From Winogradskyella wandonensis (GTDB lineage Bacteria > Bacteroidota > Bacteroidia > Flavobacteriales > Flavobacteriaceae), in assembly GCF_004346845.1 (NCBI RefSeq), contig NZ_SMGI01000001.1, positions 372,001 to 436,000 on the forward strand: a stretch of 64,000 nucleotides of DNA, given 5' to 3'. Of this stretch, positions 30,159 to 42,005 are shown one piece after another. The notes below the pieces were generated by a model. The model worked only from the letters and a program-made list of their open reading frames with translations. It searched no databases and was not told the DNA's origin. A program made the position numbers and the translations under genes. Within the stretch, counting starts at the first letter, position 1. Each line of letters starts with the position of its first letter.

Positions 30159-30172
30159 ATGACAAATATCAT
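30159..30172. promoter_or_regulatory. Fnr-like palindrome upstream of hemN
   Basis: ATGAC-AAAT-ATCAT (14 bp). Its centre (30165.5) is 29.5 bases before TAATTTTG at 30195-30202, a perfect -7 element for hemN, and no TTTG occurs at the -33 position, the arrangement of an activator-dependent promoter. The leader to the hemN ATG is about 14 bases. It is also 24 bases from the divergent YdeI-like start. Confidence 0.65.
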
Positions 30173-30194
30173 ATTTTATTCGATGCCACACCGC

Positions 30195-30202
30195 TAATTT
30201 TG
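30195..30202 (+). promoter_or_regulatory. -7 element (TAATTTTG) of hemN
   Basis: Perfect TAnnTTTG match 18 bases before the hemN ATG. The -33 element is missing, and the Fnr-like palindrome lies where an activator would be. Confidence 0.55.
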
Positions 30203-30219
30203 ATTATCAATTCATAGGT

Positions 30220-31584
30220 ATGTGCAAATCACTAGTTAATAAATATAACGTAGCGGGTCCTCGTTACACAAGTTATCCAACCGTTCCGTATTGGAATGTA
30301 GATACGTTTTCTCAGAAAAAATGGGAATCATCGATAATACAATCTTTTAACGAAAGTAATGCACAAGAAGGTTTAAGCATCTACATACATTTACCATTTT
30401 GCGAAAGTCTGTGTACCTTTTGTGGTTGCCATAAGCGTATTACAAAACGTCACGAATTGGAGTTGCCATACATAAAAGCAGTATTAAAAGAATGGCAATT
30501 GTACCTTAAGCTTTTTAAAGGACGACCAAATATAAAAGAGCTCCATCTAGGTGGTGGTACACCAACATTTTTCTCACCAGAAAATTTAGAGTTCTTAATT
30601 TCTGAAATATTAATGACATCTAATCTTGCAGAGGATTATGAATTTAGCTTTGAAGGGCATCCTAACAATACCACTAAAGAACACTTGCAAACTTTATTTA
30701 ATTTAGGTTTTAGACGCGTTAGTTATGGCGTACAAGATTATAATATAGATGTACAAAAAGCCATACATCGTGTACAGCCTTTTGAAAACGTACAAAAAGT
30801 AACTGAATTAGCAAGAGAAATTGGTTATACTTCTGTGGGGCACGACATTATATTTGGCTTGCCATTTCAGACTAAAGAAGATGTTATAGGTACCATTATG
30901 AAAACAGGAATGCTAAAACCAAACCGAATTGCATTCTACAGCTATGCCCACGTGCCATGGATAAAGGGTAATGGTCAGCGCGGATTTAGAGACGAAGATG
31001 TGCCAAAAGGAGAAGAAAAACGAGAGCAGTACGAAACAGGTAAGACCATGTTACAAAACATAGGTTACACAGAAATTGGTATGGATCATTTTGCACTGCC
31101 TAACGATTCCCTGTACAAGTCTATGATTAACAAAACACTGCATAGGAACTTTATGGGTTATACCGCTTCGAAAACGCAAGCTATGATTGGGCTTGGTGTA
31201 TCTTCCATAAGCGATAGTTGGTATGGATTTGCACAAAACGTTAAGTCGATTGAAGAGTATTACCATTTATTAAAAGAAAATATTATTCCTGTTTTTAAGG
31301 GGCATATATTAAATACAGAAGATTTAAAAATAAGAAAGCACATTCTTAATTTAATGTGTAATTTTAAAACGCATTGGGATACCGAGGACTTATATTTTGA
31401 AGAAATCCCGGAAATTATTATTAAACTTAAAGAATTAGAACATGATGGTTTACTTGCCTTTGTAGATAACGGGTTGATTGTTACCGAGAAAGGAAAACCA
31501 TTCATTAGAAATATAAGTATGGCATTTGATTTATTATTACAGCGTAAACGCCCCGATAGTCAGTTGTTTTCAATGACCATATAA
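30220..31584 (+). CDS. hemN: oxygen-independent coproporphyrinogen III oxidase
   Basis: A 454-residue radical-SAM enzyme that converts coproporphyrinogen III to protoporphyrinogen IX without oxygen. The [4Fe-4S] site is C61-x3-C65-x2-C68, followed by C70 as in HemN. HLGGGTPTFFSP, then FEGHPNNTT and YGVQDYN are the SAM-binding features, and RIAFYSYAHVPW and DHFALPND match HemN rather than the HemW group. A helical C-terminal domain is present. Its promoter carries the Fnr-like palindrome, so expression is likely induced at low oxygen. The UspA gene follows after 24 bases. Confidence 0.93.
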   Translation: MCKSLVNKYNVAGPRYTSYPTVPYWNVDTFSQKKWESSIIQSFNESNAQEGLSIYIHLPFCESLCTFCGCHKRITKRHELELPYIKAVLKEWQLYLKLFKGRPNIKELHLGGGTPTFFSPENLEFLISEILMTSNLAEDYEFSFEGHPNNTTKEHLQTLFNLGFRRVSYGVQDYNIDVQKAIHRVQPFENVQKVTELAREIGYTSVGHDIIFGLPFQTKEDVIGTIMKTGMLKPNRIAFYSYAHVPWIKGNGQRGFRDEDVPKGEEKREQYETGKTMLQNIGYTEIGMDHFALPNDSLYKSMINKTLHRNFMGYTASKTQAMIGLGVSSISDSWYGFAQNVKSIEEYYHLLKENIIPVFKGHILNTEDLKIRKHILNLMCNFKTHWDTEDLYFEEIPEIIIKLKELEHDGLLAFVDNGLIVTEKGKPFIRNISMAFDLLLQRKRPDSQLFSMTI

Positions 31585-31608
31585 TTACTAATCTTAAAAC
31601 AATTAAAA

Positions 31609-32442
31609 ATGAAAAAAATACTAGTACCCGTCGATTTTTCAGAGCACTCAGAAAATGCTCTTGAAACAGCAGCAGCCATTGCAAAAAAGCATGGTTCAGA
31701 ACTTTATGTTCTTCATATGTTGGAGCTCTCTAACGCTATTTATACAGCAAGTACAGCCGCTCTAAACGAGGAAGGTGTATTCTATTTTAAACTTGCAGAA
31801 AAGAAAATGAATACATTTCTAGATAGAAATTTTCTTGATGGTGTAGATGTAACTCCAGTAATAAAGCATTTTAAAGTATTTAAAGAAATTAATGAGGTAA
31901 TTAATGCCCATCAAATCGATTTAGTGGTTATGGGGTCTCATGGCACCAGTGGCGTAAAGGATGTCATAATTGGTTCTAATGCAGAGCGTGTGGTACGTTA
32001 TTCCGAAGTGCCAGTTCTTATAGTAAAGCACAATCCAATTTTAGTAGAGTTTAATACGGGAATATTTGCAAGCGACTTCTCCGAAGATGCCATCGAAGCC
32101 TATCTAAGAGCAAAAGCAACCTTTAAGAAATTAGATTCTAAAATGCACCTAATTTATGTAAACACACCAGATAATGGTTTTAAAAGTTCTACTGAAATAG
32201 ATGTTTTAGTAACTAAGTTTCTAAGGAAAGCAGATGGCGATTTAGAGAACTACTCTAATGTTAATGTCGTGTCCGATTATTCTGTAGAAAAAGGAATCCT
32301 AAACTTTGCAAACAGCATTGGTGCAGATTTAGTTGCTGTTGCAACACATGGTCGCAGAGGCTTGGCTCACTTTTTCGAAGGTAGTATATCAGAAGATATA
32401 GCCAACCACTCGACATTGCCAGTAATGACATTTAAAATTTAA
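31609..32442 (+). CDS. tandem universal stress protein
   Basis: A 277-residue protein with two UspA domains. Domain 1 (about 1-145) starts MKKILVPVDFSEHSENAL and has the nucleotide site GSHGTSGVKDVIIGSNAERVV, a good G-x2-G-x9-G-S/N match. Domain 2 (about 146-277) has FASDFSEDAIEAY and THGRRGLAHFFEGSISEDI, the same loop with changes. It is cytoplasmic and probably binds ATP. It lies directly behind hemN and in front of a strong terminator, so it may be part of the low-oxygen regulon, as many UspA genes are. Partner unknown. Confidence 0.85.
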   Translation: MKKILVPVDFSEHSENALETAAAIAKKHGSELYVLHMLELSNAIYTASTAALNEEGVFYFKLAEKKMNTFLDRNFLDGVDVTPVIKHFKVFKEINEVINAHQIDLVVMGSHGTSGVKDVIIGSNAERVVRYSEVPVLIVKHNPILVEFNTGIFASDFSEDAIEAYLRAKATFKKLDSKMHLIYVNTPDNGFKSSTEIDVLVTKFLRKADGDLENYSNVNVVSDYSVEKGILNFANSIGADLVAVATHGRRGLAHFFEGSISEDIANHSTLPVMTFKI

Positions 32443-32497
32443 TACTTGACTCTTTTTTTAATGTTTGGTTAGTATTTTTTTTAGAATCAAGTGTAAT

Positions 32498-32531
32498 AAC
32501 GCCAAAGTTTAATCAGCTTTGGCGTTTTTTT
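32498..32531 (+). terminator. rho-independent terminator of hemN-usp
   Basis: AACGCCAAAG (32498-32507) and CTTTGGCGTT (32517-32526) form a perfect 10-base stem with a nine-base loop, followed by a T-run. On the - strand no T-run follows, so it serves only the + strand. Confidence 0.88.
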
Positions 32532-32575
32532 ATAATTTAAAATTTGAATAGAATGTGGAATTGAAAAGCTTATAC

Positions 32576-33277
32576 CTAATGGCAATTTAATTGCCCTGAA
32601 GCCATCTCTACAAAAGGTTCTGGTGAGATATAGGGAATGCCTAAACCTAAACCTCTAAGAATAAATAAGGCTCCAATAATTACAACAAAAACAGGAACTG
32701 CTTTCTGTATGCGCTGTTTAATTGTACTGTTTAAAAACTTACCAAAATAAATGGCTGAGGTCATTAACGGGATAGTCCCAATACCAAAAATTAGCATATA
32801 TAAACTTCCCCAAGTAAGACTTCCTGTGGCTATTGCTCCAAAAACTGCCATATATACTAATCCACAAGGCAAAAATCCATTTAAAAAACCAATGGTTAAA
32901 AAGGTATCGGCACTTTTCTTTTTTAATGCTGCACCTAATGACGATTTTACCTTGCTTATAATTCGATGAAGCGGTTTAGAGAGATTGTATTTATAAATTG
33001 TCTTGTAAGGCATTAAGACTAAAACAATCATTAAAACACCAATAACTATAGACAATTGTTGTTGAAAGCCAAAAATATTTAAACTTTTACCGATAATGCC
33101 AAAGATTAGCCCAATAAGGCTATAAGCCAATAAACGACCTAAGTGATACATAAAAATTTGTGAAACTTTTTTAAACGAGTTTGTTCGGTCCACAGGTAGC
33201 ATAAACGCAATAGGACCACACATGCCAACGCAGTGTAAACTCCCTAATAATCCTAATGCAAACGCTGTGGCTACCAT
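32576..33277 (-). CDS. TauE/SafE-like (UreH-type) membrane protein at the end of the cco operon
   Basis: A 233-residue protein with six or seven membrane helices. LGLLGSLHCVGMCGPIAFML carries the C..MCG.I motif of the UreH/TauE-SafE/DsbD-like group. GFLNGFLPCGLVYMAVFGAI repeats a proline-cysteine motif (LPCG) in the second half. Proteins of this type beside CcoGH are linked to cbb3 oxidase assembly, perhaps moving electrons or copper across the membrane; the activity here is not proven. It starts five bases after ccoH and is the last gene of the operon. An ordinary sulfite exporter is less likely in this context. Confidence 0.78.
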   Translation of the reverse strand: MVATAFALGLLGSLHCVGMCGPIAFMLPVDRTNSFKKVSQIFMYHLGRLLAYSLIGLIFGIIGKSLNIFGFQQQLSIVIGVLMIVLVLMPYKTIYKYNLSKPLHRIISKVKSSLGAALKKKSADTFLTIGFLNGFLPCGLVYMAVFGAIATGSLTWGSLYMLIFGIGTIPLMTSAIYFGKFLNSTIKQRIQKAVPVFVVIIGALFILRGLGLGIPYISPEPFVEMASGQLNCH

Positions 33278-33282
33278 AAATA

Positions 33283-33729
33283 TTAATAGCTTAATTGGTC
33301 TTTATACATAAACGCTTCGTCTTTATAAGTCCAGTCTATCTTAATGTTCCAGCGACCATCTAACAAGCGATTGTCAGGTATGAGCAAGTTGTGATTAGAC
33401 AATGAAATAGGAATCTCAAAATCTAGTTGCTTATTAGATGGTCTATATAGGAACACTTTTCCTTTTATGCTTGTAATGTCTAAGTCTTTTGGAAAGGCTA
33501 AAAGAATACCATCTTCTGTCTTTTTCCAGGTGATATTTTCTGAAAGCTTTTTGGCATTTTCAACCTTATTAATATCGTTCTGATATTTTAATTCTTGTTG
33601 GTAATAATCATCTGTTACCAAGTCGTGATTGTATTTAGAATCTGTACTCATACTAATCACGAAATACATTATAAATGCTATAAATCCTATAAACGCAATG
33701 ACGATTGCTGTGCCCCAATTTATTTTCAT
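33283..33729 (-). CDS. ccoH: CcoH/FixH-family protein
   Basis: A 148-residue protein with one N-terminal membrane helix (WGTAIVIAFIGFIAFIMYFVI), then DLVTDDYYQQELKYQNDINK, the FixH region, and an Ig-like beta domain in the periplasm. FixH/CcoH is needed to assemble or stabilise cbb3 oxidase; bacterial homologues are variable, so the call rests on the helix plus the YYQ-E-Y-D-N-K motif and the operon. It starts 10 bases after ccoG and the TauE-like gene follows. Confidence 0.82.
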   Translation of the reverse strand: MKINWGTAIVIAFIGFIAFIMYFVISMSTDSKYNHDLVTDDYYQQELKYQNDINKVENAKKLSENITWKKTEDGILLAFPKDLDITSIKGKVFLYRPSNKQLDFEIPISLSNHNLLIPDNRLLDGRWNIKIDWTYKDEAFMYKDQLSY

Positions 33730-33739
33730 ATCTTATATT

Positions 33740-35164
33740 TTAATTATAGCTACGAGGTCCTAAAAAACCAACAGTTGTGGTTTCAACTAACTCCTCGTTA
33801 CTGTATATATCTATTGTTAACTTATTTTTATCGCCGGATACGTCTTTGCGATATAATTCTATAAACAATGTACCTTCGGCAATGTCTTGCGCTTTTAATA
33901 CCATCGCATCAGAATTTGAAACGAGTTTTACTTCGCCTTCCATATTTCTTATTCTAAAGCTTATATTTTGGATATCTTCCGACGTTTTATTTACCAGTTT
34001 GTAGGTGTACACATTACTTATAATATCTTCTCCTTTTTGCTCGTAAAGTTGGCCTGGTAATCTAAGAATATTAGCTTCCACGTCATTTCTTAGAGCCAGC
34101 ATACCTAATAAAACTCCAGAGAGAATAACAAGGACTGTGATGTATCCTTTCATTCTTGCAGTTAGCTTAAACTCAGTTTTATTTTCGATGTTTTCCTCGC
34201 TAGCATAACGGATGAGACCTTTAGGAAGATTAATTTTTTCCATAATTGTATCGCACTCATCGATACATGCTGTGCAATTAACGCACTCTAATTGCGTACC
34301 GTTTCTAATATCTATTCCGGTAGGGCAGACGTGTACGCATTGAAAACAATCAATACAGTCGCCATGACCTAAAGCTTGGCGGTCTTCATTTTTTCGGAAC
34401 GATTTACGCCCGTTTTCTCCTTCGCCTCTTTTGTGGTCATACGCCACGACAATAGATTTGGTATCTAATAATACACCTTGTAAGCGCCCGTATGGACAGG
34501 CAATAATGCAAACTTGTTCTCTAAACCAGGCGAAAACAAAATAAAATACACCTGTAAAAATTATTAGTGGTATAAGTGTGCTAAGGTGCTTAAACGGACC
34601 TTCGATAATATACTTTATAAGCTTATCACCACTTATAAGATAGGCTAAAAATACGTTAGCTATTAAAAATGATATAACTAAGAATATAAACCACTTTAGT
34701 AGGCGTTTTCTAATTTTTTCTGAATCCCATTTTTGTTTTGCAAGTTTACGCTGCTTGTTTCTATCGCCATCAATCCAAAACTCAATACGTCTAAAGACCA
34801 TTTCCATAAAAATGGTTTGAGGACAAAACCACCCGCAAAAAATACGCCCAAAACCTACGGTAAACAACGTAATAAAGACAACAAGAATTATCATTGATAT
34901 AACGAACAAATGAAAATCTTGTGGCCAGAACGGAAAGCCAAAAATATTAAAGCGACGCTCTAATACATTGAACATCAAAAACTGATTGCCATTAATTTTT
35001 ATAAATGGCGAGGCAAATAAAAAGGCTAATAAAAAATAGCTTAATAATTTACGTTTTTCCCAAAGTGGTCCGGATGGTTTTTTAGGAAATATCCAGTTGC
35101 GCTTTCCTTCTTCATTGATGGTAGCGATAGAATCTCTAAAAACTTCGTTTGAAGGGGTTTCCAT
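33740..35164 (-). CDS. ccoG: cytochrome c oxidase accessory protein CcoG
   Basis: A protein of about 474 residues in the CcoG/FixG/RdxA family. Several N-terminal membrane helices include FGRIFCGWFCPQTIFMEMVFRRIE. The cytoplasmic ferredoxin region has CIDCFQCVHVCPTGIDIRNG and CVNCTACIDEC, two [4Fe-4S] clusters, and later IIACPYGRLQG appears in the loop. CcoG is a Cu2+ reductase needed for copper delivery to the cbb3 oxidase. The periplasmic Ig-like end (about 370-470) is typical. The start is taken as METPSNEV at 35164. It sits between ccoP and ccoH. Confidence 0.9.
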   Translation of the reverse strand: METPSNEVFRDSIATINEEGKRNWIFPKKPSGPLWEKRKLLSYFLLAFLFASPFIKINGNQFLMFNVLERRFNIFGFPFWPQDFHLFVISMIILVVFITLFTVGFGRIFCGWFCPQTIFMEMVFRRIEFWIDGDRNKQRKLAKQKWDSEKIRKRLLKWFIFLVISFLIANVFLAYLISGDKLIKYIIEGPFKHLSTLIPLIIFTGVFYFVFAWFREQVCIIACPYGRLQGVLLDTKSIVVAYDHKRGEGENGRKSFRKNEDRQALGHGDCIDCFQCVHVCPTGIDIRNGTQLECVNCTACIDECDTIMEKINLPKGLIRYASEENIENKTEFKLTARMKGYITVLVILSGVLLGMLALRNDVEANILRLPGQLYEQKGEDIISNVYTYKLVNKTSEDIQNISFRIRNMEGEVKLVSNSDAMVLKAQDIAEGTLFIELYRKDVSGDKNKLTIDIYSNEELVETTTVGFLGPRSYN

Positions 35165-35207
35165 GTTTTTACGCAACTGGCGATTTGGCTGTTTTTATAA
35201 ATTAACC

Positions 35208-36194
35208 TTAGTTTTCTGTAGCACTTACAACTTCTACGGCTTCAGTACTTTCTGTACTGCTGTTTTCTTCTGTTTTTTCCTCTGTTTCTTTGTTAGTTTC
35301 TTGGTCTGTTGCAGACTCATCTATCCAAATCTCACCTTCGGCAGCTTTGGCCTCTGCAGGTGTTGTGCCTTGAAATTGTAACACATAGCTTGCTACTTGT
35401 GCCATTTCAGAAGGCTTTAAACCTTCTTTCTTCCAAGAGACCATACCTTTACCAGAGCGTCCACCTTCAGAAATAGTTTTGAACACATTTTTTATACCAC
35501 CGCCAAGAATCCAATACTCATCGGTAAGATTTGGTCCAATACCACCACCGCCATCAGCTTTGTGACACACGGCGCATTTGGAGACAAAAATATTTTCACC
35601 AGCTTTTAAGTCAGACGCTTCAGTTAAAAGTACTACTGTATTTACATCTACTAAATCTTTGGCATTTTTCTTATACTCTTCTATCGCGCGTTGTGCTTCG
35701 GCATACTCAATTTCATATTCTGCAAATTGGTCATCTGCATTAAGCACATGATATCTAATCATATAAACGACTCCGAATATAATTGTAACGTAAAAGCTAT
35801 AGACCCACCAAGGTGGAAGATTATTATCGAGCTCTTTTATGCCATCGTAGTTATGGTCTAAAATAATTTCGCCTTCTTCTTCAATAGGCTTAGAACCGAC
35901 TAGTTTTTTGTATGCGTTCTTAAACCATAATACTAGTTTAGACGGTGCTTCTTGTTGCGCATCGTATCTTGCTTTGGCTTCTTCGTCTAAACTTTGATAC
36001 AAGACGTTTTCCATAGCGCCAACAATACCTTCTATGGCAATTAGAATTAAGAGTACCAATAGTAAGAAAGCTAAAACCACTGGTTTTTCCATAAAGGCTG
36101 GTTGGTCTCCAGACTCTACAAAGTATTCGACAAGTCCTGCTATAATAAAGAATACAAGAGGAACTCTTATGTATGATGGGATTAATTTTCTCAT
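35208..36194 (-). CDS. ccoP: cbb3-type cytochrome c oxidase subunit III, single heme c
   Basis: A 328-residue CcoP. It has membrane helices near 11-27 and 38-58, a charged loop, then a helix after DNNLPPWWVYSFYVTIIFGVVY (about 123-144), the FixP domain, and one cytochrome c domain: C207-x2-C210-H211 with Met251 as likely axial ligand. Proteobacterial CcoP has two heme c sites; here only one. The C-terminal ~40 residues are Glu/Thr-rich and unlike other CcoP. It passes electrons to the CcoNO core. It overlaps ccoQ by four bases. Confidence 0.9.
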   Translation of the reverse strand: MRKLIPSYIRVPLVFFIIAGLVEYFVESGDQPAFMEKPVVLAFLLLVLLILIAIEGIVGAMENVLYQSLDEEAKARYDAQQEAPSKLVLWFKNAYKKLVGSKPIEEEGEIILDHNYDGIKELDNNLPPWWVYSFYVTIIFGVVYMIRYHVLNADDQFAEYEIEYAEAQRAIEEYKKNAKDLVDVNTVVLLTEASDLKAGENIFVSKCAVCHKADGGGGIGPNLTDEYWILGGGIKNVFKTISEGGRSGKGMVSWKKEGLKPSEMAQVASYVLQFQGTTPAEAKAAEGEIWIDESATDQETNKETEEKTEENSSTESTEAVEVVSATEN

Positions 36195-36376
36195 GATAAT
36201 GTATCGTTTTGGTTGTCTAATGGTAAGTTACTCACCGTATTGATGTAGTCTTTCTTAGCGGTAAATACCCAGTAAAAAAGAGTGACAAAAAAGATGAAAA
36301 ATATAAGTAAGGATATCAAAGGGTATATTTCTATACCTGTGATACTTTCCATATGTCCTTTTACAAATTTTAGCAT
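36191..36376 (-). CDS. ccoQ: CcoQ-like small subunit
   Basis: A 61-residue protein with one membrane helix (PLISLLIFFIFFVTLFYWVFTA) and a polar C-terminus with KKDYINTVSNLPLDND-like residues. Its size, single helix and place between ccoNO and ccoP fit CcoQ, the small cbb3 subunit that helps complex stability. Sequence alone would not identify it. It starts five bases after the ccoNO stop and overlaps the ccoP start by four bases. Confidence 0.72.
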   Translation of the reverse strand: MLKFVKGHMESITGIEIYPLISLLIFFIFFVTLFYWVFTAKKDYINTVSNLPLDNQNDTLS

Positions 36377-36381
36377 GGCTT

Positions 36382-38574
36382 TTAGTTTTGAGCGGTTTCT
36401 TCTATGATTTCTTTTACTTTTATATCAGTGCCTAAGCGCTGTAAGTAGGCAATAATCGCAACAATTTCACGATTTTTCATTTCTACAAAATCAGCACCAG
36501 CGGCTGCTTTATCTGCTTCGTAACTTTTTACAAAGTCTGGGTCGTCGTAAAGATTTTTCTCGATTTGTGCACCTTGTGCTAGCATAGATTGCTGTGCGTT
36601 GTCAATGTCCTCTTGAGTGTAAGGTACACCTAATGTTACCATGGCTTCCATTTTCTTTTCGGTCATGGATTTATCGAGTTCATCTCTAATAAGCCACTGA
36701 TATCTCGGCATAATAGATTCTTCATTCATAGCTTGCGGGTCGTAAAGGTGACTTAGATGCCAGCTATCTGTGTACTTTCCGCCAACACGGTGTAAATCTG
36801 GTCCGGTACGTTTACTTCCCCATAAGAATGGGTGGTCATAGACATATTCACCTGCTTTAGAATACTCACCATAACGCTCCACTTCACTTCTAAACGGTCT
36901 TACCATTTGCGAGTGACAGCCAACACAACCTTCACGGATGTAGATATCTCTACCTTCTAATTCTAGCGGTGTGTATGGTTTTACACTGCTAATTGTTGGA
37001 ATATTAGACTCTACGACTAACGTTGGTATAATCTGAACAATACCTCCAATTAAGATAGCTACGGTTGCATAAATGGTTAATAAAACAGGTTTACGCTCTA
37101 ACCAAGTGTGCCATCCTTCTCCAGCTACTCGGCCTTTAGACACACGTTTTAGAGCCGGAGCTTCTGCTAATTCGTCCGTAACTGTTTCGCCAGAACGTCT
37201 TACAGTTACAATAACGTTATACACTAGAATAAGCATACCTGCGATGTATAGTGTACCACCAATAGCTCTCATCCAGTACATTGGCATAATTTGGGTTACA
37301 GTTTCTAAAAAGTTACCGTAAACTATCGTCCCGTCTGGTTGAAACTGTTTCCACATACTTGCTTGTGTAAATCCAGCAACATACATTGGTAAGGCGTATA
37401 ATATAATACCTAGAGTACCTATCCAGAAGTGTAAGTTGGCTAAACCTATTGAATGGAGTTTGGTTTTAAATAATCTTGGGATTAACCAATAAATCATACC
37501 AAAGGCCAAGAAGCCATTCCAAGCTAATGCACCGACGTGTACGTGTGCAATAATCCAATCGGTAAAGTGTGCAATAGCATTTACATTTTTAAGCGAAAGC
37601 ATAGGTCCTTCGAAGGTGGCCATACCATAACCTGTAATGGCAACAACCATAAATTTTAGAACTGGGTCTGTACGAACCTTGTCCCACGCACCTCGTAAGG
37701 TTAATAATCCATTAATCATACCACCCCAAGATGGTGCAATAAGCATTACAGAGAATGCTACACCTAAATGTTGCGCCCATTCTGGTAAAGCTGTATATAA
37801 TAAGTGGTGTGGTCCGGCCCAGATGTAAATGAATATTAATGACCAAAAGTGAACTATGGAAAGCCTGTAAGAATATACTGGTCTATTAGCGGCTTTAGGT
37901 ACAAAATAGTACATTAAACCTAAGAACGGTGTTGTTAAGAAAAATGCTACAGCATTGTGTCCGTACCACCATTGTACTAAAGCATCTTGTACACCAGCAT
38001 AAACAGAGTAACTTTTTAAACCACTAACTGGCAATTCTAAACTGTTAAAAATATGAAGTACCGCTACAGTAACAAACGTAGCTAGATAAAACCATATCGC
38101 TACGTATAAATGGCGTTGACGACGTTTTAGTATAGTACCAATAAGATTAACACCAAAAGCTACCCAGATTAATGCTATAGCAATATCGAAAGGCCACTCT
38201 AGCTCAGCGTATTCTTTTGAGGTTGTATAACCCAAAGGCAAGGTAATAGCTGCGCCAACAATAAGTAATTGCCAAGCCCAGAAATTAAAATTACTTAGAA
38301 AGTCGCTAAACATTCTTGCCTTAAGTAAACGTTGTGTCGAGTAGTAAACACCTGCAAAAATGGCGTTACCCACAAAGGCAAAAATCACAGCGTTTGTATG
38401 CAGTGGTCGTAAACGTCCAAAGCTTAACCAGGATATGCCATCGGTCATGTTTGGGAATAAAAACATAAATGCCAGTATAAGCCCTACCAGCATTCCAACA
38501 ACTCCCCAAAGTATGGTGGCATAGAGGAATTTTTTAACGACTTTGTTATCGTAATAAAATTGTTGAATTTCCAT
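36382..38574 (-). CDS. ccoNO: fused cbb3 cytochrome oxidase subunits I and II
   Basis: A 730-residue fusion. The N-terminal ~480 residues are CcoN: twelve helices, heme-copper His ligands in RPLHTNAVIFAFVG, WWYGHNAVAFFLTTP, GPHHLLYTALPEW and IAHVHVGALAWNGF. The C-terminal part (from about 500) is CcoO: one helix, then REGCVGCHSQMVRPF with C550-x2-C553-H554 as heme c site and ESIMPRYQWL. CcoN binds heme b, the b3-CuB centre and reduces oxygen; CcoO feeds electrons. In proteobacteria they are separate genes; the fusion is common in Bacteroidetes. It follows ccoS by 16 bases. Confidence 0.93.
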   Translation of the reverse strand: MEIQQFYYDNKVVKKFLYATILWGVVGMLVGLILAFMFLFPNMTDGISWLSFGRLRPLHTNAVIFAFVGNAIFAGVYYSTQRLLKARMFSDFLSNFNFWAWQLLIVGAAITLPLGYTTSKEYAELEWPFDIAIALIWVAFGVNLIGTILKRRQRHLYVAIWFYLATFVTVAVLHIFNSLELPVSGLKSYSVYAGVQDALVQWWYGHNAVAFFLTTPFLGLMYYFVPKAANRPVYSYRLSIVHFWSLIFIYIWAGPHHLLYTALPEWAQHLGVAFSVMLIAPSWGGMINGLLTLRGAWDKVRTDPVLKFMVVAITGYGMATFEGPMLSLKNVNAIAHFTDWIIAHVHVGALAWNGFLAFGMIYWLIPRLFKTKLHSIGLANLHFWIGTLGIILYALPMYVAGFTQASMWKQFQPDGTIVYGNFLETVTQIMPMYWMRAIGGTLYIAGMLILVYNVIVTVRRSGETVTDELAEAPALKRVSKGRVAGEGWHTWLERKPVLLTIYATVAILIGGIVQIIPTLVVESNIPTISSVKPYTPLELEGRDIYIREGCVGCHSQMVRPFRSEVERYGEYSKAGEYVYDHPFLWGSKRTGPDLHRVGGKYTDSWHLSHLYDPQAMNEESIMPRYQWLIRDELDKSMTEKKMEAMVTLGVPYTQEDIDNAQQSMLAQGAQIEKNLYDDPDFVKSYEADKAAAGADFVEMKNREIVAIIAYLQRLGTDIKVKEIIEETAQN

Positions 38575-38590
38575 AGTTAGTGTAATTGAT

Positions 38591-38767
38591 TTATTTAGTT
38601 GAATTATTTTCTTTTTCAGCTTTTACGAGTTCATCCTCAAAAAGCATGCGCACAGACGGTGTATAACTATCATCGTATTGCCCAGATTTTACAGCAAAAA
38701 CAAAGACTGCAAAGAATACAATAGCAACAATAATGCTTACAGCAAGTAAAATATATATAACGCTCAT
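38591..38767 (-). CDS. ccoS: cbb3-type oxidase assembly protein CcoS
   Basis: A 58-residue gene below the usual size limit. It starts with MSVIYILLAVSIIVAIVFF, a single membrane helix, then AVKSGQYDDSYTPSVRMLFEDE; a G.(Y/F)DD...P..R.L.(F/D)E pattern is the CcoS hallmark. CcoS is a small inner-membrane protein needed for cofactor (heme and copper) insertion in cbb3 oxidase. The 16-base gap to ccoNO, the single-helix form and the promoter directly upstream make it the first gene of the operon. Confidence 0.88.
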   Translation of the reverse strand: MSVIYILLAVSIIVAIVFFAVFVFAVKSGQYDDSYTPSVRMLFEDELVKAEKENNSTK

Positions 38768-38787
38768 ACCTATTTGAAGTTATGGCT

Positions 38788-38795
38788 CAAAAATA
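38788..38795 (-). promoter_or_regulatory. -7 element (TATTTTTG) of the cco operon
   Basis: Perfect TAnnTTTG match on the - strand, 20 bases before the ccoS ATG. At the -33 position there is no TTTG. The Fnr-like palindrome centre lies 29.5 bases upstream of the first base, as at hemN. Confidence 0.55.
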
Positions 38796-38817
38796 CTGTT
38801 GAACCTTTTTTAAAAAC

Positions 38818-38831
38818 ATGACTTTTATCAT
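38818..38831. promoter_or_regulatory. Fnr-like palindrome upstream of the cco operon
   Basis: ATGAC-TTTT-ATCAT (14 bp), centre 38824.5, in the 79-base gap between the ccoI stop and ccoS. Spacing to TATTTTTG is 29.5 bases, identical to the hemN promoter. This puts it near -41 from the predicted transcription start. Confidence 0.65.
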
Positions 38832-38846
38832 ATCTAATTAATTTTC

Positions 38847-41219
38847 TCATTTTAATCGTCGGCCTAAAAGATTAGTTGCAATCGTTGTAAAGACTACAAT
38901 ACTAATCGAACTTAAAGGCATTAATATCGCCGCAATAACCGGCGCTAACTGTCCAGTTACAGCAAAATATAGGCCTATAACATTATAGAAAAATGATAGT
39001 AAAAAACTCCATTTAATTATCGAAATAGCCGATTTTGAAGCTTTTATATAGCTGTATAATTTTTTAAATTTTGAAGCATCTAAAATAGCATCACAAGCTG
39101 GCGAAAAGACATTAACATCTTCGGATATAACAATACCAACATTGCTTTGGGCTAACGCACCAGCGTCATTTAGACCATCACCAATCATGGCAACTTTAGC
39201 ACCTTCTTTTTGGTGAAATTTTATATACTCTAGCTTATCATTTGGCTTCTGGTTAAAAATCAATTTTGTTTTAGAGGGTAATAGTTTTTTTAAATTTTCA
39301 AGCTCACCTTCATTATCGCCTGAAAGAATGGCTAAATCAAAATCCTTTTTTAATTGTTTAAATAATTTTGAAACACCTTCACGATAGCTATTATAAAAGG
39401 TAAATTTTCCCTTATATGTATTGTTGCTACTGATGTGTACAGCGGTGTTTAGAGCAACTTCCGCAGTTGTATTTCCTACAAAATTTGACGAGCCAATCTT
39501 TAGTTCTGTATTTTTATGTTTGGCTTCTATGCCTTTTCCGACGTGTTCTTCAAATTTGTCTAGACTTACTATGCCATTTGTTTTTAGAATCTCATAGAGT
39601 GAGCGACTTAAGGGATGACTAGAACCTCGAAGTGAGCTTTTTAATACCGTAACTTCAGTTTCAGAAAGTAAATCACCTTCGTATTCTGCGTTATTGGTTT
39701 TATTTGATGTTATGGTTCCGGTCTTATCGAATATAATTGTATCAACCTGAGCTAATTGCTCTATAACACTTGCATTTTTTATGTAGAATTTTAGTTTACC
39801 AAAAATTCGTAATAAATTCCCAAAAGTAAATGGCGCAGACAAGGCAATAGCACAAGGACAAGCAATGATAAGCACTGCAGTAAATACATTTAAAGCTTTA
39901 GACGCGTCTCTAAAAAGCCAGTAGCTGGTGGCAATAATTGCTATGGCTAATAGTGTTATCGTAAAATGTTTACTAATGGTATTTGTAATGTTTTTAAAGC
40001 CGTCTTCTTTGTTTTTATTGAAGACATCATTGCTCCACAATTGCGTGAGGTAACTCTGTTCTACAGGTTTTAGCACCTCTAATTCTATAATTCCAGCCGT
40101 CTGTTTACCACCGGCAAAGAGCTTGTCTCCAGAATGTTTAGTTACGGGTTGCGACTCTCCAGAAACAAAGCTGTAATCTATTTTAGCACGTCCATTAATT
40201 AAAATACCATCAACAGGGATAAGCTCTTCATTTCGTATAAGTAATCGGTCTCCTTTTTTAATATCATAAACTTGTACGCTAGATTCTTTCCCATTGTCTA
40301 TTTTGGTCACAGCGATAGGAAAATACGATTTGTAGTCGCGCTCAAAAGATAAAAAGTCGTAGGTTTTTTGCTGAAAATATTTTCCGACTAATAAGAAAAA
40401 TACAAGTCCTGCGAGACTATCGAAAAATCCAGAACCTAAATCAAGAGCAATTTCAAACGTACTTCTTATAAATAACACCGAAACGCCTAATGCTATCGGT
40501 ACATCGATATTAAGAAGTCTTGCTTTTAGTCCTTTATAGGCAGAAGAAAAGTAGTCTTGAGCCGAATAAAATACAACGGGCAATGATAAGCCAAACATGA
40601 GCCAGCGAAAGAGATGTTTGTATTGCTCTAACCAAAATTCATTGACTTCAAAATATTCTGGAAAGGACAAGAACATAATGTTTCCAAAACCAAATCCCGC
40701 AACGCCCAGTTTGTATATTAAAGAACGATTAATCTGTTTTTTACTTGTTCCGAAATCTTCTAGACTTATATAAGGTTCATAGCCAATTTTGTTAAGTAAT
40801 AGAACAACTGATTTTAGGCTTGTTTCTTGGTTTTTATAGGTAACTCTGACGGTTTTTTTACCAAAATTCACCTGAGAATCCGTAATGCTAGGATTTAGTT
40901 TGTTTAGATTTTCTAAAATCCAAATACAAGAACTACAGTGGATATGCGGTATGTAAAGTGTTGCTATCTCTAGATTATCGCTCTTAAATTCAGTAAGTTT
41001 ATCAATAATAGTTTCTTGAGATAGGAAATCGTATTTCCCTTCAATTTCTTTTGGAGTAGCCCCAGGCGAATTTTGTAAATCGTAATAACACGTTAAATCG
41101 TTTTCATTAAAAATTTCGAAAACTGTTTTACAGCCGTTACAACAAAAACGTTTTTCTTGATAATCTATGGGTGAATTCCCACAATCGTCACCACAATGAT
41201 AACATGTGTTTGTATTCAT
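38847..41219 (-). CDS. ccoI: copper-translocating P-type ATPase of cbb3 assembly
   Basis: A 790-residue P1B-type ATPase. An N-terminal treble of Cys pairs (CYHCG, FCCNGCKTVF) forms a zinc-ribbon-like module. A metal-binding domain with H-C95-S-S-C98 follows, then an eight-helix core with A-domain VSGESQP, metal-site ACPCAIALSAP, phosphorylation DKTGT and hinge GDGLNDAGAL. The C-x2-C HMA plus the extra cysteine module is typical of FixI/CcoI, which supplies copper to the oxidase. It sits upstream of ccoS on the same strand and is divergent from the Fnr gene, with an Fnr-like box between. Confidence 0.9.
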   Translation of the reverse strand: MNTNTCYHCGDDCGNSPIDYQEKRFCCNGCKTVFEIFNENDLTCYYDLQNSPGATPKEIEGKYDFLSQETIIDKLTEFKSDNLEIATLYIPHIHCSSCIWILENLNKLNPSITDSQVNFGKKTVRVTYKNQETSLKSVVLLLNKIGYEPYISLEDFGTSKKQINRSLIYKLGVAGFGFGNIMFLSFPEYFEVNEFWLEQYKHLFRWLMFGLSLPVVFYSAQDYFSSAYKGLKARLLNIDVPIALGVSVLFIRSTFEIALDLGSGFFDSLAGLVFFLLVGKYFQQKTYDFLSFERDYKSYFPIAVTKIDNGKESSVQVYDIKKGDRLLIRNEELIPVDGILINGRAKIDYSFVSGESQPVTKHSGDKLFAGGKQTAGIIELEVLKPVEQSYLTQLWSNDVFNKNKEDGFKNITNTISKHFTITLLAIAIIATSYWLFRDASKALNVFTAVLIIACPCAIALSAPFTFGNLLRIFGKLKFYIKNASVIEQLAQVDTIIFDKTGTITSNKTNNAEYEGDLLSETEVTVLKSSLRGSSHPLSRSLYEILKTNGIVSLDKFEEHVGKGIEAKHKNTELKIGSSNFVGNTTAEVALNTAVHISSNNTYKGKFTFYNSYREGVSKLFKQLKKDFDLAILSGDNEGELENLKKLLPSKTKLIFNQKPNDKLEYIKFHQKEGAKVAMIGDGLNDAGALAQSNVGIVISEDVNVFSPACDAILDASKFKKLYSYIKASKSAISIIKWSFLLSFFYNVIGLYFAVTGQLAPVIAAILMPLSSISIVVFTTIATNLLGRRLK

Positions 41220-41274
41220 TCAACTTGCTTATTTATACCTGGCACAAATTTCAGAATATGAAGGTGTTAAAAAC

Positions 41275-41288
41275 ATGATAAAAATCAT
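41275..41288. promoter_or_regulatory. Fnr-like palindrome between ccoI and the Fnr gene (perfect copy)
   Basis: ATGAT-AAAA-ATCAT, two perfect half-sites, centre 41281.5. Toward ccoI it is 30.5 bases before GAAATTTG (a -7 candidate with one changed base at 41251-41244). Toward the Fnr gene it is 16.5 bases before TATTTTTG at 41298, covering the usual -33 region, so it may activate ccoI and control the Fnr gene itself. Confidence 0.65.
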
Positions 41289-41297
41289 ATAAATCAT

Positions 41298-41305
41298 TAT
41301 TTTTG
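41298..41305 (+). promoter_or_regulatory. -7 element (TATTTTTG) of the Crp/Fnr gene
   Basis: Perfect TAnnTTTG match 23 bases before the ATG of the Fnr-like gene. The Fnr-like palindrome overlaps its -33 position, a typical place for repression or autoregulation. Confidence 0.5.
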
Positions 41306-41327: not shown

Positions 41328-42005
41328 ATGAGTAAATGTGAATCATGTATTGTTAAAGAATTTAATTCTTTAAAATCTTTAACGCGGGATGAACTTGTGC
41401 GTATTTCCGCTTGTAAAACGGGTAAGACTTATGATAAAGGTCGCGTTATTTTTGAAGAAGGTGAAACAATAAATGGTGTGTATTGCGTTAAAGATGGGGT
41501 TTGTAAATTAACTAAGCTAAGTGAAAATGGTAAAGACCAAGTTGTTAAACTTGTGGTAAAAGGTGGTCTTTTAGGTAAGCGTTCGTTGGTTACCAATGAG
41601 TCTTCTAGCTTAACAGCAACAGCACTTACCGAAATGGAGATGTGTTTTATACCAAAGGCTGAGATTATGGACGATTTACAAAAGAATGCAAATTTTACGC
41701 TAGATGTTTTACAAAAGATGACGGAAGACTTAAAAGAATCCGAACATTCTATAGTAAATATGGCGCAAAAACCTGTTAAGAAAAGAATGGCTGAGGCTTT
41801 ACTCTATATCCATGATAGTTTTGGTACAGATGAAGATGGTTATTTAACCATCGTATTATCTAGAGAAGATTATGCGAGTATTGTGGGTACTGCTACTGAA
41901 TCTGCAATTCGGATTTTGTCTCAGTTTAAAAAAGAAGGGCTTATAAGTACTTCGGGAAAGCGTATAAGAATAGAAGACGCTAACGCTCTTAAATGGGTTG
42001 AATAA
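41328..42005 (+). CDS. Crp/Fnr-family transcriptional regulator
   Basis: A 225-residue regulator. A cyclic-nucleotide-like sensor domain (about 30-140) is followed by a winged helix domain. N-terminal cysteines occur at C4, C7, C29, C53 and C59; the CxxC at the very start recalls FNR, but spacing differs from the C20-C23-C29-C122 set. The recognition helix ESAIRILSQF aligns with ETISRLLGRF of E. coli FNR, keeping Glu and Arg but replacing Ser212 by Ile. It sits beside the cco genes and three ATGAY-N4-ATCAT boxes. It is thus a likely oxygen or redox regulator of cbb3 and hemN; ligand or cluster is not known. Confidence 0.88.
   Translation: MSKCESCIVKEFNSLKSLTRDELVRISACKTGKTYDKGRVIFEEGETINGVYCVKDGVCKLTKLSENGKDQVVKLVVKGGLLGKRSLVTNESSSLTATALTEMEMCFIPKAEIMDDLQKNANFTLDVLQKMTEDLKESEHSIVNMAQKPVKKRMAEALLYIHDSFGTDEDGYLTIVLSREDYASIVGTATESAIRILSQFKKEGLISTSGKRIRIEDANALKWVE

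Follow-up and report, generated by a model that had tools for sequence, protein, structure and literature searches.

A conserved ATGAY-N4-RTCAT box at a fixed distance from TAnnTTTG promoters of Flavobacteriaceae, and its possible reading by two kinds of predicted oxygen-sensing regulator

Background

A palindromic box, ATGAY-N4-RTCAT, is found at one fixed distance from TAnnTTTG promoter elements across the Flavobacteriaceae. Judged from promoter sequences, it is best read as the site of a class II activator, centred near -41.5. Two kinds of predicted oxygen-sensing regulator, an FNR-like protein (class A) and a fusion of a receiver domain to a Crp-type protein (the REC-Crp fusion, class C), appear to read this one box and to be able to stand in for each other. 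We consider the whole model, a class II box read by class A and by the fusion, quite probable. Established here computationally are the box with its fixed gap, how far it is conserved, which genes it accompanies and that it co-occurs with each regulator.

Results

The box and its promoters in the window

The window is the whole stretch of 64,000 nucleotides of Winogradskyella wandonensis DNA that was analysed; its coding share is 93%. The genes of the locus are as follows.

30220..31584, + strand: hemN, oxygen-independent coproporphyrinogen III oxidase (TIGR00538, above cut-off)
33740..35176, - strand: ccoG accessory protein (TIGR02745, above cut-off)
35208..36194, - strand: ccoP-like cytochrome c subunit (TIGR00782, below cut-off)
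36382..38574, - strand: fused ccoN/ccoO of the cbb3 oxidase (PRK14485, above cut-off)
38591..38767, - strand: ccoS-like ORF of 58 aa (sequence read by eye)
38847..41219, - strand: heavy-metal P-type ATPase, ccoI by context (below cut-offs)
41328..42005, + strand: class A regulator, an FNR-like Crp/Fnr protein that likely reads the box (domain and sequence matches)

There are five exact matches to ATGAYNNNNRTCAT in the window, against a mean of 0.38 and a maximum of 2 in 100 dinucleotide shuffles. The earlier note had reported three palindromes, at 30159, 38818 and 41275, and all of them are where it placed them, as exact matches to ATGAY-N4-RTCAT. The other two matches (42660 and 50366) lie inside ORFs. 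The three boxes and their -7 elements are these.

30159..30172, + strand: box ATGACAAATATCAT of hemN (motif scan and promoter measurement)
30195..30202, + strand: hemN -7 element TAATTTTG, gap 22, 29.5 from the box centre
38818..38831, - strand: box ATGATAAAAGTCAT of the ccoS-ccoNO promoter (motif scan and promoter measurement)
38788..38795, - strand: ccoS -7 element TATTTTTG, a perfect TAnnTTTG, 29.5 from the box centre
41275..41288, no strand assigned: ccoI/fnr box ATGATAAAAATCAT, used in both directions (motif scan)
41245..41252, - strand: weak ccoI-ward -7 element GAAATTTG, at 29.5 from the centre of the box
41298..41305, + strand: fnr-ward -7 element TATTTTTG, gap 9, 16.5 from the box

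The distance of 29.5 from box centre to a perfect TAnnTTTG, claimed previously for hemN and ccoS, was measured at both. For ccoI the claim had been 30.5, which is a miscount of 29.5; the ccoI element does carry the single mismatch ascribed to it.

The box and its gap in the whole genome

The genome from which the window comes (2.96 Mb) holds 35 exact boxes, compared with 22 matches to the same pattern read backward. By our own ORF calls, 19 of the 35 are intergenic and 16 lie inside ORFs. The earlier note had proposed looking genome-wide for TAnnTTTG at 29-31 bp from the box. An element matching at 5/6 positions or better, 28.5-31.5 from the box, accompanies 14 of the 19 intergenic boxes but only one of the 16 ORF-internal ones; five intergenic boxes are without it. 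Twelve such elements stand at gap 22 (equal to 29.5), while the mean per gap is 0.95 (61 gaps, 35 sites), and five of the seven perfect composites with gaps of 12-40 have gap 22. Beside the intergenic boxes lie, as far as naming by eye goes, genes such as mdh, hemN, those of cco, a PPK2-type kinase and pfkA, and further hemA, tonB, YceI, UspA, MlaE and a DASS-type transporter.

Conservation in the family and the phylum

One rival reading is that AT-rich intergenic DNA yields the pattern by chance. Across 199 Flavobacteriaceae genomes (198 genera), ATGAY-N4-RTCAT followed by TAnnTTTG at gaps of 12-40 gives 1001 composites, and a reversed-pattern control gives 141. At gap 22 alone there are 701 composites (reversed control 2), a 65-fold excess over the mean of 10.7 for the other 28 gaps, and 151 of the 199 genomes have at least one. 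The motif thus survives the concern, raised in the earlier note, that it might be equally frequent away from promoters. Among 80 named loci around fnr, 79 composites have gap 22, and six control palindromes gave none at that gap in the same loci. In most of these loci a gap-22 composite stands at a promoter of the ccoS-ccoNO type. Relatedness of orthologous promoters could be invoked as well, since it makes these 79 composites non-independent; yet the gap-22 excess in the 199 genomes involves many unrelated genes. We give practically no credence to chance or relatedness as the source of the pattern; as a full explanation they are ruled out by the control palindromes and the gap-22 excess, and chance with AT-richness also by the distribution of gaps in the window's own genome.

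In the 80 named loci, boxes with one mismatch have TAnnTTTG at gap 22 in three cases, compared with 79 for exact boxes; hence the box is stringent. A second cluster of composites in these loci, at gaps 8-9 (31 composites), fits the fnr-ward orientation, for which a scan of the nearest boxes gives 30. On the scale of the phylum, a match was found in 55 of 296 genomes (rows counted by hand): 29/30 in the family, 5/6 in the order outside the family, 12/37 in the class outside the order, and 9/223 elsewhere in the phylum.

Several further observations may be mentioned. An identical box-to-promoter segment of 44 bases is present in genomes of three genera (G113, G030 and G387), perhaps on a mobile element. 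One genome outside the class (G459) has 18 gap-22 composites, and several genomes of family f22 have 1-4. A box also recurs at gaps of 36-38 ahead of a promoter containing AATTGTTATT, where an activator may take another position, farther upstream.

Geometry of the promoters

With the first T of TAnnTTTG assumed to be -12, the 80 gap-22 promoters sampled have the box at about -48 to -35, and their positions -33 to -30 are T-rich (60-81% T). TTTG with a spacer of 18-22 occurs in one of these 80, in agreement with the earlier claim that TTTG is absent at -33. In E. coli, FNR at class II promoters binds as a dimer to a site at about -41.5 that replaces the -35 element. The fixed gap of 22 and the scarcity of TTTG place the flavobacterial promoters in this category of a site near -41.5 in lieu of an upstream element. 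The earlier suggestion of a class II activator site near -41 extends in this way to the family, where both the geometry and the low-oxygen gene content hold, and the predicted role of the box in oxygen control is well supported by these sequence comparisons.

The box between ccoI and fnr deserves separate consideration. It is exact in 70 of the 80 named loci, has one mismatch in seven and is lacking in three. In 74 of the 77 loci with a box, a ccoI-ward -7 element (VAnnTTTG) matching at 5/6 positions or better stands at gap 22. What is conserved at ccoI (41245-41252 in the window) is thus a weak -7 element, in which the first T is usually absent; among the gap-22 rows listed, that T is the missing base in all except two with a perfect or a weaker element (gap 21 in L100 and L105; 4/6 in L051). 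In the direction of fnr, a gap of 9 would put the box on the core promoter, which suggests autorepression. Because a perfect fnr-ward TAnnTTTG at gap 8 or 9 was found for only 30 of the 77 boxes, autorepression of fnr from the shared box is a weakly supported suggestion.

The FNR-like regulator encoded beside the box

The class A protein of the window has the cNMP_binding and Crp-type HTH domains that define the Crp/Fnr superfamily. It matches A. fischeri FNR chains (E 1e-17), scores 78.9 bits against the NCBIfam Fnr model PRK11161, below the cut-off of 228, and is 94% identical to the class A protein of the nearest named relative, a Winogradskyella. A fold search places FNR chains at ranks 18-24, behind better-scoring Crp types, and FNR is therefore not distinguished by the fold.

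Residues C4, C7, C53, C106, E191, I194 and R195 are invariant in 80/80 named and 40/40 diverged class A relatives, taken by match coordinates. The 80 named loci were found with six peptide seeds, some of which contain the counted cysteines, and the 40 diverged proteins are therefore the cleaner test; C29 is kept in 7 of these 40 and C59 in 17. The recognition helix is E-S-A-I-R in the window, and E-x-x-I-R is found in all 120 relatives. In the structural model C53 lies on strand 50-56, C106 on strand 103-109, and E191 to R195 in helix 190-202. FNR-type oxygen sensors have a [4Fe-4S] cluster that is lost in oxygen; we infer that a cluster in class A would be held by C4, C7, C53 and C106.

E. 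coli FNR has cysteines CxxCx5C plus a central Cys, a helix E-x-x-S-R and the site TTGAT-N4-ATCAA. The flavobacterial system resembles it in the position of the site, in the FNR-like fold and in the conserved central Cys. It differs in that class A lacks the E. coli-type cysteine set, having no third N-terminal Cys at that spacing and an invariant Cys53 instead, and in that its helix has I in place of S. The outer base of the box is A where E. coli has T, as the earlier note had remarked; the canonical pattern TTGAY-N4-RTCAA has eight sites in the 80 loci and takes part in no composite.

A receiver fused to a Crp-type protein

Motif-rich genomes without class A encode a protein of 350-370 aa with receiver, cNMP-binding and HTH domains. 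A 349-aa fusion has PF00072, PF00027 and PF13545 in one protein, which is the receiver-plus-Crp/Fnr combination of the FixL/FixJ/FixK type, and the helix is E-[ST]-x-I-R in the copies read. The genome of the window has one as well:

contig 5, 74729-75775: class C fusion, adjoining PAS histidine kinase and UspA genes

Among solved structures, the first PAS domain of this kinase matches DosP best (E 7e-11) and then FixL (E 1e-8). In kinases found beside the fusion (20 fetched and this one), the axial-His column is H in 20/21, and a FixL-like distal GR[DEN] is present in 13/21 by hand count, the eight without it including our own. DosP and FixL are heme oxygen sensors, and the kinase, here called FixL-like, is a candidate for another. 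A search of phages with the fusion protein gave partial matches only, none covering 80%.

Which regulator reads the box?

The co-occurrence of regulators and boxes was compared in the 199 genomes. Class A was scored as present at E <= 1e-60 and class C at E <= 1e-70; the class C set excludes G002, where only the receiver is matched, but includes G194, which is truncated, and the class B set, described below, leaves out G186, where the hit is the class A gene. The number of exact gap-22 promoters (N22 promoters) per genome, uncorrected for kinship among the genomes, is as follows.

Both A and C: 6.98 (49 genomes, 49 with at least one)
A only: 3.21 (67 genomes, 62 with at least one)
C only: 3.46 (37 genomes, 33 with at least one)
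Neither A nor C: 0.35 (46 genomes, 7 with at least one)

A linear fit, likewise uncorrected, assigns 3.0 promoters (SE 0.4) to A, 3.4 (SE 0.4) to C and 0.9 (SE 0.5) to B, with an intercept of 0.1. The effects are additive, with no clear interaction (0.7, SE 0.7). Exceptions exist: an exact N22 promoter is lacking in 9 of the 153 genomes that have A or C, and of the seven genomes that have such promoters with neither regulator, two have a completeness of 73% and 82% and one has class B. The regulator contrast is present in both genome-size classes. Genome size was considered as the reason for absent boxes and is ruled out, as N22 promoters are found in 2 of 12 genomes of at least 2.9 Mb with neither regulator versus 21 of 23 smaller ones with A or C.

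Could class A alone read the box, with the REC-Crp fusion as a co-resident bystander? The class A gene does adjoin a box in the window, and hemN and cco have N22 promoters in all seven A-only genomes sampled. Genomes with the fusion alone, however, average 3.46 N22 promoters, compared with 0.35 in those with neither regulator, and in 7 of 20 such fusion-only genomes checked the match to the fusion gene ends 28-31 bases from an exact N22 promoter. We regard a reading by class A alone as improbable. The earlier note had attributed the boxes to the neighbouring Fnr; that attribution stands insofar as class A is a likely reader, but Fnr alone is incomplete, as class C predicts boxes about equally well.

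Another candidate is class B, a Crp/Fnr protein of about 250 aa (L152:1399-2154) with E. coli-like CxxCx4C and a central Cys125, which may be a third reader. Its helix E-Q-V-I-R, its FNR-like cysteines and its small contribution in the fit would suit it as the real reader. Yet it is found in only 34 of 199 genomes and is absent from the genome of the window at E 1e-40, and the 36 genomes with A and C and no B still average 7.17 promoters. The two further Crp/Fnr proteins of the window's genome are without E-x-x-I-R. That class B or an unseen factor should be the real reader seems to us very improbable indeed.

Hence the reader in the window is most likely the FNR-like protein at 41328-42005, and the response-regulator/Crp fusion encoded elsewhere in the genome is likely a second reader. 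Comparison of box letters between A-only and C-only genomes (40 versus 40 promoters) revealed no difference within the box above the threshold of 0.3.

Target genes

Genes sampled downstream of gap-22 composites encode cbb3 oxidase, HemN, cytochrome c, UspA, Pta, NadA and others. Of the 128 C-only promoters, 40 were taken, from 9 genomes; of the 215 A-only promoters, likewise 40, from 7 genomes. Targets were named by eye; ten representatives were scanned against Pfam, and nine had a family and one had none. The C-only sample has UspA 11 times, cytochrome c 5, MlaE 3, cco 3, nadA 2, YceI 2 and hemN once, and the A-only sample has cco 7, hemN 7, thioredoxin-like proteins 5, pta 4 and cytochrome c 3, with no UspA. 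Among the promoters fetched from the nine C-only genomes, cco has the promoter in three and hemN in one. Some targets are common to both regulators, among them cco, hemN, cytochrome c and nadA, and others are private to one. One target without a Pfam family, some 600 aa long (L288 and relatives, starting ..HSFHIPVMGIGFTID..), occurs in both promoter sets.

Discussion

The mechanism that we propose is the following. A dimeric FNR-like activator would bind ATGAY-N4-RTCAT at about -41.5, 22 bases upstream of TAnnTTTG, and, once bound, would replace the missing TTTG -33 element and contact RNA polymerase. Class A would turn on hemN, ccoS-ccoNO and ccoI as oxygen falls, and would probably limit its own gene from the single ccoI/fnr box. 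The REC-Crp fusion, driven by the FixL-like PAS histidine kinase, would read the same box. If this is correct, a single site would receive two oxygen inputs, with each regulator sufficient in the absence of the other. Binding, activation, oxygen sensing, the start site and autorepression are each what we infer from the observations above.

A box shared by an FNR protein and a FixL-fed regulator is already known in rhizobia. FnrN and FixK of alphaproteobacteria recognise very similar sites, and FixLJ feeds FixK (PMC4999443); in R. leguminosarum, hFixL-FxkR-FixK and FnrN both drive fixNOQP (PMC7888657). The likeness to these anaerobox systems would comprise an Fe-S FNR, a FixL-fed Crp/Fnr protein, very similar sites and a cbb3 oxidase under their control, the flavobacterial side being deduced from sequence. 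There are differences too. Rhizobia have a TTGA-type box, and FixJ (or FxkR) is separate from FixK, whereas in flavobacteria one protein combines the receiver with the FixK-like part, ATGAY-N4-RTCAT precedes a Bacteroidota TAnnTTTG promoter, and the cysteine set is another one. In the one paper found on Crp/Fnr regulons of Flavobacteriales, a Crp/Fnr homologue of a genome of this order was considered and carbon sensing predicted, with the Bacteroides MalR matrix and not with ATGAY-N4-RTCAT (PMC8510549). Our literature search, for which most subscription journals were outside coverage, did not find the flavobacterial box, the fused regulator or the cysteine set in print.

A broader speculation, on which we are evenly balanced, is that this is a phylum-specific oxygen switch. 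It would combine one stringent box, an FNR-like sensor with altered ligands (Cys 4, 7, 53 and 106) and a one-protein FixJ-FixK fusion that takes its signal from a heme kinase. The regulators would have been swapped on the same promoters in the course of evolution, each adding targets of its own, UspA in the case of the fusion and pta in that of the FNR-like protein.

Flavobacteria are abundant degraders in the sea and in soil, and we found no promoter code for their oxygen control in print. Given a stringent box and one fixed gap, their low-oxygen regulons would become readable from sequence, and an activator promoter of the TAnnTTTG type is now available for laboratory testing. More generally, these bacteria may offer a case of two unrelated oxygen inputs using, and perhaps swapping, one DNA site.
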